A stretch of DNA of 64,000 nt from Armatimonadota bacterium (GTDB lineage: Bacteria; Armatimonadota; JADLDR01): contig JADLDR010000040.1 of NCBI GenBank assembly GCA_020846535.1, forward strand, positions 1-64,000, written 5' to 3'. Below, piece by piece: positions 9,091-12,546 of this stretch (its first letter is position 1; every line of letters starts with the position of its first letter). A program made the position numbers and the translations under genes. The notes under the pieces were generated by a model, which was given only the letters and a program-made list of their open reading frames with translations, had not been told where the DNA came from and ran no database searches.

Positions 9091-9125
9091 AATCGAAGCC
9101 CTCCTCAAAAGCTCGTGATGGTTAT

Positions 9126-9154
9126 AGTATAGCCAATGAGAAGGGGGATGTCAA
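9126..9154 (-). promoter_or_regulatory. Sigma-70 promoter of hslVU
   Basis: On the minus strand, TTGACA (9154-9149), a 17-base spacer, then TATACT (9131-9126), about 36 bases upstream of the hslV TTG start. Confidence 0.8.
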
Positions 9155-9165
9155 TGGAAGGAGAG

Positions 9166-10050
9166 CTATAATAGGGTTCCTTGCACAATCGTTGAGTTGA
9201 TACGGCCTATTGCCAATTGGGAATACTTTTCAGACAAATCTATACCGTAAAAGTATCGGCCAAGCTTTTTAGCCACTACGCCAGTTGTGCCAGACCCAGT
9301 AAACGGGTCGCACACAAGACTACCTTCTTGAGAGGTAGCGACAAGGCAGGTTTCAACTAGTTTTTCAGGAAATACCGCAAAGTGTACACCTCGATATTTT
9401 CCCAATGGAATCTCCCAGACCGTTCTTTTATTTCTTCCCAGAGGATGAAAGGCTTGATCCCAACGAGATGTATGGAGGTTGGGATTGCCCGAATTCTTAC
9501 CGTTTTCAGGTGTACCATTTCTCTTGCCAAAATGATTCCTACCGCCTTTCATTCTAGATTTCTCACCAAAAGTTACATGAGGCTCACGTATCAAATCAGG
9601 ATTGTAAAAATAAACCTTGTTCTTTGCGAAAAAGAAAATATATTCGTGATCAACGGTCGGACGTGTTTTCACTGATGATGGCATAGCATTCGGTTTGTAC
9701 CATATTATATCACTTCGAAGTTGCCAACCAACTTCACCTAAAGCGAGAGCAACCCGCCAAGGCACTCCTAAAAGAATATTGTTTCTATAGGTATCCCCTA
9801 TATTCAGCCAGAGTGTGCCATCATCTCTTGTTTTTTTGTAAAGCTCAGAGAATACATCTACTAGGTGATTAATATAGTCGTTGAGTTCGACCTCAGTGCC
9901 GATTTCATTTTCGTTTTCCGGCGTGTAGATTCGATGCCCGAAATAAGGTGGACTTGTAATACTTGTTTGGATTATCTTATCAGGAATTGTAGATAGCACC
10001 TCCTTTGCATTCCCTGTGATTACGGTGTAGCTTTTCTCAATATATACCAT
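9166..10050 (-). CDS. Type II DNA methyltransferase (N4-cytosine/N6-adenine amino class)
   Basis: Predicted 294 residues. The catalytic motif TSPPYF (near residue 32) precedes the SAM-binding motif CDPFTGSGTTG (near residue 248), the beta-class order of amino-methyltransferases. SPPY is commonest in N4-cytosine enzymes. GTLWLNIGDTYRNN and WQLRSDIIWYKPN are further conserved blocks. The region is markedly AT-rich compared with its neighbours, which suggests transfer. Its ATG overlaps the last 14 bases of the upstream nuclease-like frame (10037-11005), the arrangement of a restriction-modification pair. The recognition sequence cannot be inferred. The methyltransferase itself appears intact. 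Confidence 0.9.
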   Translation of the reverse strand: MVYIEKSYTVITGNAKEVLSTIPDKIIQTSITSPPYFGHRIYTPENENEIGTEVELNDYINHLVDVFSELYKKTRDDGTLWLNIGDTYRNNILLGVPWRVALALGEVGWQLRSDIIWYKPNAMPSSVKTRPTVDHEYIFFFAKNKVYFYNPDLIREPHVTFGEKSRMKGGRNHFGKRNGTPENGKNSGNPNLHTSRWDQAFHPLGRNKRTVWEIPLGKYRGVHFAVFPEKLVETCLVATSQEGSLVCDPFTGSGTTGVVAKKLGRYFYGIDLSEKYSQLAIGRINSTIVQGTLL

Positions 10051-11005
10051 CTAAAAGCTCCTGAACGAACAAGTTTAATAATACCTGAGAGTCGTCGTCG
10101 AACCCTTCAAATGAGTTCGGGTTAGAATCGAAATAAAAAACGGTATTTATCAACCCTCTGATGCTTTCGATTTCACGAGGTGACCAGTTTCTGGCAACGA
10201 TTACCAAACAAATAACAGAATCCTTAAGTATATATCTAGTTTCTGCTACGGCGGTAATAACATCCCTACTAAAGAGATGAGCATGGCCTCCTCCTTCGGT
10301 TTCGCGGGTTTTAATTGGAATAAGTAGGAGCCGTTCTGTTTGGTCATCTATCTTAAGTTTAACACTGACATCAAATGTATGTATGCCTACCTTTATCTGC
10401 GATTCTACTATTTCAACGCTTTTATACTTCCCATAGCTGCTGTGTGTTTAGAAATAATTCTGAAAGGACGTAATCAAAGCGGTGCGGCAAAGTATTTCAA
10501 GATGATGCCCCTTGATTGACCTTCGAGACCCTTCAAGGCGATCTATAACTATTTCTCTGAAGGTTTCCCACGAAAAAGTTTTAACCATATCTCTATACTC
10601 GTATATGAGTTTTGCTAAGGTATCCACCTCTGCTTCAAGGCTTTCGACGCTATCTAGCTTTTTCATTCTCTGAATTAGGGGAGCAAGACGCTGCTGGGTC
10701 GCATCACGTATTATCCAAGCAAAGAAATAGAAATAGGCTTTTTTATGTGAATACATCCTTCCTATGCCATCAAGCAAGAATGGCTTACTCTCATCTGAAG
10801 AATTAAAGCAAGCCAATAAGGCTTCTTTTAATTGATCCTCTTGCAACTCATATAGGATAGTGTCTAACTCTTTATGAGAACCCGTCTGAATCTTCACTTT
10901 CTTTTCGACCCAATCATAAAAAGGCTTCGCTTGATCTGCGAGTTTGGTAAGCTCTACCAATCGAGCATGGCTTATATCGACTTTATGAACTATTAAACTA
11001 TTCAT
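10037..11005 (-). pseudogene. Type II restriction endonuclease gene interrupted by an in-frame TAA
   Basis: From ATG 11005 the frame encodes 185 residues to TAA at 10450-10448. It then continues in the same frame for 136 more codons without another stop to TGA at 10039-10037, overlapping the methyltransferase start by 14 bases. The read-through product would be 322 residues. The second half has TFDVSVKL followed 16 residues later by LIPIKTRE and GGGHAHLFSRDV. This D...(I)xK arrangement fits PD-(D/E)XK nucleases, although the exact family is not recognised. Position beside the methyltransferase and shared AT-richness support restriction function. With the stop, the catalytic half is not made unless translation reads through or re-initiates. 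Confidence 0.75.
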
Positions 11006-11084
11006 TTATTTCTCTCGGTGTTTCTCTTGAGTCTTTTATAATGGCAATAATGGTATTAGTAATTGATAAGAGATAAAGTTATAC

Positions 11085-11816: not shown

Positions 11817-12179
11817 TCAAATCAAATAATCTTGCAGAGACTCCTTGCCGGCCAGCATCAGACCCTCTCTCAAAGCAGGCCCGACCACTCCCCAGCCTTC
11901 TTCAAGGCTCTTTCGGGCTTCCCCCGGCGTATAGACGAAAACATCCGCGCTGACTCCCAGCCGTTCAGGGCGATATAAGGAGGAGCGATGGTGAAACGCC
12001 ACCGGAGACTCTTTCAGCAGCACCAGAATATCCGCATCGCTGGCTGCTGTGCAATCTCCTCGGGCATAGGAGCCGAAAAGCACCACGCAAAGCACCGAGG
12101 GGTCGGTTGTCAGAGCATCCGCCCATCGGATCAGGTTGGTGATAACCTCATCACGGTTCGTACGGAATATTCTGATCAC
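11817..12179 (-). CDS. mntA: MNT-domain nucleotidyltransferase antitoxin (HEPN/MNT system)
   Basis: Predicted 120 residues. The motif GSYARGDCTAASDAD is exactly GS-x10-DxD, the active site of minimal nucleotidyltransferases. In characterised HEPN/MNT pairs this protein AMPylates and thereby silences its HEPN partner. No other domain is seen. Its start overlaps the end of the HEPN gene by 29 bases, so translation is probably coupled. The gene symbol is by analogy with MntA and has not been tested here. Confidence 0.85.
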   Translation of the reverse strand: MIRIFRTNRDEVITNLIRWADALTTDPSVLCVVLFGSYARGDCTAASDADILVLLKESPVAFHHRSSLYRPERLGVSADVFVYTPGEARKSLEEGWGVVGPALREGLMLAGKESLQDYLI

Positions 12180-12546
12180 ACCAATTCACCACCTCTTCGG
12201 CATCCATGACCGCCTGGCTGGCCTCCGCGCGGGTGTAATAACGTTTCGGTGCGCCTTCCGGATGAGCATCCGGATAGCGGGAAGGGATATAATGCCTGTC
12301 CAGCCTGCGGGCCGCATCCAGCAATGCCTCAGTGGTCTCGTCCGGCAGCGGCACAGCCTCCAGAAGAGACAGCACGGAATGGCCCCAGACAATATTGCCC
12401 AGCGCCATATGCAGGGCTTTGGCGGCTTTCTCCGCCGACTGCTGGGCCGCAAAACAGGCCCACTCGAAATGGCGGATGTGGATGCTCTGACGAGCATGTT
12501 CCAGGTCTGCCTTCGCCTGTTCCAGCCAGTCGGCGCTGCGGTTCAT
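12151..12546 (-). CDS. hepT: HEPN-domain toxin (HEPN/MNT system)
   Basis: Predicted 131 residues. WLEQAKADLEHARQS, HFEWACFAAQQSAEKAAKAL and YYTRAEASQAVMDAEEV are typical HEPN helices. The RNase motif R-x4-6-H is present as RYPDAH (residues 90-95), so catalytic capacity looks intact. HEPN proteins of this type are ribonuclease toxins held in check by the MNT partner encoded immediately downstream with a 29-base overlap. A near-consensus promoter (12572-12600) sits 25 bases upstream. No sign of decay. Confidence 0.86.
   Translation of the reverse strand: MNRSADWLEQAKADLEHARQSIHIRHFEWACFAAQQSAEKAAKALHMALGNIVWGHSVLSLLEAVPLPDETTEALLDAARRLDRHYIPSRYPDAHPEGAPKRYYTRAEASQAVMDAEEVVNWCDQNIPYEP

Follow-up and report, generated by a model that had tools for sequence, protein, structure and literature searches.

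Does an in-frame TAA in a restriction endonuclease gene, next to an intact methyltransferase gene, mark a restriction-modification (R-M) system that has recently lost its nuclease, or can the interrupted gene be accounted for in some other way? We addressed this question for a locus in a 64,000-nucleotide stretch of an Armatimonadota genome (the window). Recent loss of the endonuclease after import of the pair, leaving a newly solitary methylase, is in our view the best reading, with a probability of roughly three in four. The features of the locus, with R for the endonuclease and M for the methyltransferase, are as follows.

9109..11084, no strand: AT-rich island between hslV and pyrF, with the R-M pair as its sole content
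9166..10050, minus strand: beta-class DNA methyltransferase (M), intact, 294 residues, N6_N4_Mtase, with TSPPY and DPFTGSGTTG motifs
11005-10037, minus strand: endonuclease read-through (R), 322 codons with a single internal TAA
10451..11005, minus strand: N-terminal, mostly helical part of the Type II restriction endonuclease, 185 residues, ending at the in-frame TAA
10448..10450, minus strand: premature in-frame TAA, codon 186 of 322, at the end of the long helix 146-188
10037..10447, minus strand: C-terminal nuclease core, 136 codons plus TGA, with invariant Asp212 and Lys232

The interrupted endonuclease and its partner

The layout is that given in the initial annotation: endonuclease parts of 185 and 136 residues share one frame and are separated by the TAA at 10450-10448 alone, and the end of the second part (10037) and the methyltransferase start (10050) overlap by 14 bases. 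An open run of 136 codons was reached by 5 of 20,000 first-order Markov sequences of island composition, and homologues align colinearly with both endonuclease parts across the stop; the post-stop frame is therefore not a product of chance, the homology being decisive. The methyltransferase gene is open throughout and the endonuclease gene is not, owing to the TAA at codon 186.

The assignment of the split gene to a restriction endonuclease was borne out by the PADLOC model REase_II PDLC03531, which spans read-through residues 4-318 (E 1.6e-80). Against Pfam and NCBIfam the read-through had no significant match, and DUF1912 and CagD (Pfam, E 0.024-0.08, under the cut-off) were dismissed as chance. 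The methyltransferase was recognized by PADLOC as MTase_II (PDLC03387, 3.7e-92) and by Pfam as N6_N4_Mtase (3.1e-49); its TSPPY motif is commoner in N4-cytosine enzymes. It had been described as intact, and indeed its frame is open and 96 of the 97 columns strongly conserved across 70 relatives are preserved in it. An AGGAG lies seven bases ahead of its ATG, so the methyltransferase need not depend on translation of R, and we infer that the methylase is expressed and active. About 400 message bases that are now untranslated precede the gene and could lower its expression, a point that counts against our main reading. A promoter scan was at chance level (4 found, 4.6 expected).

An AlphaFold2 model of the read-through (61 rows) has a pLDDT of 90.7 and a pTM of 0.72, and places codon 186 at the end of its long helix, just ahead of a beta core at residues 196-292. 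The order of helix and beta core, with the Asp and Lys on neighbouring strands, is that of the PD-(D/E)xK fold, and in fold comparison residues about 161-322 group with PD-(D/E)xK nucleases. Fold matches include Cdn1 (Z 11.8, 123 aligned) and EcoRI, MunI, and PspGI (Z 8.2-8.7). BstEII was the sole Foldseek match with E < 0.001 (2.9e-4), and a profile search of solved structures returned one match, a ribosomal protein (E 0.083). The catalytic-looking D...IxK segment initially noticed after the stop is real, with Asp212 and Lys232 invariant in 65 of 65 aligned rows. The motif is not the textbook (D/E)xK, because the residue two ahead of Lys232 is the nearly invariant Pro230 and the canonical acid is missing there; other invariant acids in the endonuclease alignment include E158, E170, and E235. 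The read-through and all relatives also share an invariant K-x-RET-x-GGGH...F-x-RD block (10292-10354 minus, residues 228-248), in which the invariant His nine residues past the Lys may correspond to the catalytic His of BsoBI. Since the stop precedes the core, the 185-residue product is without it.

Relatives of the pair and its origin

Searches with tblastn found the endonuclease in seven plasmid records (Lactococcus 52%, Lactiplantibacillus 44%, Escherichia and Salmonella about 30%), the same seven in which the methyltransferase was found (E up to 1e-60); those records that annotate the endonuclease label it a hypothetical protein. A degenerate scan of genome contigs gave 71 endonuclease loci, from about 59% identity downward, in Beggiatoa relatives, Chloroflexi, Cyanobacteria, Bacteroidetes, Acidobacteria, Planctomycetota, and others, and no relatives came from the viral contigs and phages searched. 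In Cyanobacteria, Chloroflexi, Beggiatoa relatives, Lactococcus, and others, endonuclease relatives encoded by one unbroken gene have the same methyltransferase as their neighbour. In the close relatives (group A), R lies upstream of M on the same strand and often overlaps it, and most pairs of the distant relatives (group B) are convergent. The overlap, projected from the aligned start and not from annotated start codons, is likewise 14 bases in L018, L019, L024, and L041.

M adjoins R in 70 of the 75 R loci read, and four of the five without a visible M (L029, L043, L044, L049, and L085) are at contig ends. Among the 70 paired loci, a contig end truncates R in L048 and L086, and in L010 R spans the record origin; in 64 of the remaining 67 it is open for at least 250 residues. 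The broken or short cases are L045 (frameshift), L083 (in-frame TAG), and L081 (N-terminal part outside the open frame), and no stop codon was found within the M matches of the 70 examined. The family thus shows recurrent loss of R with M kept, at a frequency of a few per cent, some of these cases possibly being assembly errors. In L083 (4001-4792) the TAG comes directly past the catalytic Asp and the adjacent methyltransferase is unbroken, as is the one beside the frameshifted endonuclease of L045 (1465-2429). L011, L012, and 12 E. coli plasmids carry a compact R-M pair in convergent orientation, with a small HicB-like gene next to M. Its replicons are E. coli plasmids of about 100 kb and a 4.9-kb Salmonella plasmid, where it is annotated merely as a hypothetical protein and a methyltransferase; near copies of the E. 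coli version were found in 12 of 5426 E. coli genomes, on plasmids in all 12.

The R-M pair is a horizontally acquired import between hslV and pyrF. G+C is about 40% in its island and about 60% in the flanking DNA, and GC3 is 0.36-0.39 in the pair as opposed to 0.77-0.81 in pyrF and hslU. Among 60 genomes sharing only the phylum with the source, none had R and two had M, as partial matches at 42-43%. Just beyond pyrF (11817-12546 minus), a nucleotidyltransferase gene (PF01909, E 4.6e-9) overlaps a gene for a HEPN protein (PF05168, E 2.5e-32), forming a HEPN-MNT-like toxin-antitoxin pair.

Age and cause of the stop codon

The stop column holds a sense codon in all 32 aligned group-A relatives, the kind of residue varying, and a gap in the 32 group-B rows, from which the segment is absent. 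This alignment (A3) comprises 64 of the 75 relatives (71 genome loci and 4 of the 7 plasmids); rows that were broken, partial, or weakly matched at the N-terminus (L029, L045, L048, L049, L067, L079, L081, L083, L084, L085, and L086) were omitted. The close relatives among these (L029, L045, L048, L049, and L085) have a residue and no stop at that column, and none of the lesions of the broken relatives is at codon 186. Homologues in which the two parts are normally separate proteins, an observation that would tell against a broken gene, were not seen; the 32 aligned close relatives are all continuous. An alternative genetic code was excluded, since TAA is an ordinary terminator in the window, where it ends 15 of 46 other mechanically chosen ORFs; nine of the ten TAA-ending ORFs scanned carry Pfam domains. 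A second endonuclease copy elsewhere in the genome was ruled out by a genome search that gave a single match.

Of the columns at least 95% conserved in group A, 62 precede the stop, and the window matches 58 of them; all 25 that follow the stop are kept. The post-stop part has no second stop or frameshift, and 53 single changes in its 136 codons would create a stop. From the conserved columns kept and the lack of a second lesion it follows that the stop is either recent or a consensus error; if the second part drifted freely, simple arithmetic would put the amino-acid drift since the stop arose at no more than about 11% (95%). In trees of 31 tips, which omit group B and the cut-short L043 and L044, the window tip branch is 0.815 after the stop versus 0.402 before, the second highest ratio. 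The faster post-stop branch counts against a recent loss and hints at an older relaxation. A likelihood test for relaxed selection after the stop, run on 16 of the 31 tips, gave the window a 2dlnL of 3.55, short of significance, and two of the 15 other tips tested had scores in the opposite direction of 3.48 (L030) and 3.73 (L035). Residues unseen in any relative number 17 of 185 before the stop and 18 of 133 after it, within the range of other long tips (20/185 and 20/133 in L038, 11/185 and 15/133 in L037).

The initial annotation had offered either a recently lost nuclease beside a retained methylase or a phase-like on/off state. The former is now the best-supported reading, given the sense codon in every aligned close relative, the position of the core after the stop, and the conservation of the methylase. 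A Type II pair, R first and overlapping M, would have been imported into the hslV-pyrF interval, and one recent nonsense codon would end the endonuclease at residue 185, ahead of its PD-(D/E)xK-like core. As the stop falls before that core, restriction would be lost and the methyltransferase would stay as a newly solitary methylase. We infer for this that the TAA base is real in the organism and that the truncated 185-residue protein is inactive. What marks the candidate solitary methyltransferase here is an intact methylase sequence beside a stop-interrupted endonuclease in the assembled consensus, which comes from a draft assembly of 253 contigs with 8.38% contamination.

It is possible, if unlikely, that the stop is a sequence or consensus error, the endonuclease being intact in the organism and the Type II R-M system an ordinary working one. 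One wrong base would suffice, and the good state of the post-stop part, with all 25 conserved columns kept and no further lesion despite the 53 possible stop-making changes, would fit such an error as well as it fits a recent mutation. Single-base substitutions are, however, rarer than indels in an assembled consensus. In favour of an error, an older resequencing study, as it is cited in PMC3488263, found 109 of 138 apparent frameshifts or stops to be unreal. The undecayed downstream part would also be expected if rare read-through of the TAA yielded a little full-length endonuclease and a weak, tolerable restriction that keeps this part under selection; restriction is catalytic, so little enzyme may suffice. 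Such leakiness is quite improbable, as TAA is an ordinary terminator here and recency accounts for the same data. We rate as more doubtful still a stop acting as a tolerated attenuator, with the 185-residue part retained as a product of its own (for example, one that binds DNA or dampens the rare full-length enzyme), occasional read-through, and a pair tuned down but not dead.

The phase-like state, in which the stop would be one position of a reversible switch, draws on the intact downstream part and nothing else, and we give it almost no credence. Both endonuclease parts lie in one frame, so slippage cannot switch the gene; repeats within 10250-10650 are limited to a 9-base direct pair and a 10-base, 90% inverted pair, and the wider island has imperfect repeat pairs only, with no slippage tract at the stop and no suitable inversion around it. 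Breakage at codon 186 is also confined to the window among the broken relatives. Hardly more credible is a split enzyme in which two separately translated subunits rebuild the nuclease. In the model the stop does separate the helical part from the nuclease core, and for GmrSD re-initiation after a stop is on record (PMC12707154). Against this, no in-frame ATG, GTG, or TTG occurs after the stop before codon 267, beyond Asp212 and Lys232, and every aligned close relative is one chain.

Comparison with known systems

The window shares with the PADLOC Type II R-M models (PDLC03531 and PDLC03387) a near full-length R match and an adjacent M match, and differs from them in the in-frame TAA of R. The pair of Lactococcus cremoris plasmid pJM4H (WP_021214725 and WP_081146415) has the same order, with R 52% and M 60% identical to those of the window and the genes overlapping by 11 bases. 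It differs in that R is one unbroken gene, annotated as a hypothetical protein, on a 6.2-kb plasmid; a literature search on pJM4H found no paper. The pairs of Candidatus Halobeggiatoa HSG11 (L041) and Crocosphaera (L018 and L019), with R 58-59% identical and also a projected 14-base overlap, again differ from the window in having an unbroken R.

As in orphan methyltransferases derived from R-M systems, the methylase in the window is intact and its partner nuclease probably disabled. In contrast to them, the presumably dead partner has stayed in place with almost no decay, and the two genes remain together in most relatives. The window pair would be a clean snapshot of the origin of a solitary methyltransferase, in which the nuclease is lost first, the safe order, and the methylase remains. 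PMC12707154 reports that many lineages conserve modification enzymes lacking a partner restriction function, and PMC6471742 attributes the patchiness of R-M systems to their frequent transfer and loss. By these accounts, systems that lose the nuclease and retain the methylase are already familiar, and the window would be one more case; PMC3488263 remarks in turn that some apparent R-M gene lesions are sequencing errors.

A by-product of the analysis may be more useful, namely a widespread endonuclease family without a significant Pfam or NCBIfam match, with a fold near those of BsoBI and BstEII and an unusual Pro replacing the usual acid. These two solved enzymes resemble the read-through over nearly its full length (BsoBI Z 10.3, 235 aligned, rmsd 5.4; BstEII Z 9.7, 228 aligned, rmsd 5.2), and differ from it in their 11-13% identity, rmsd above 5 A, and lack of a sequence match.
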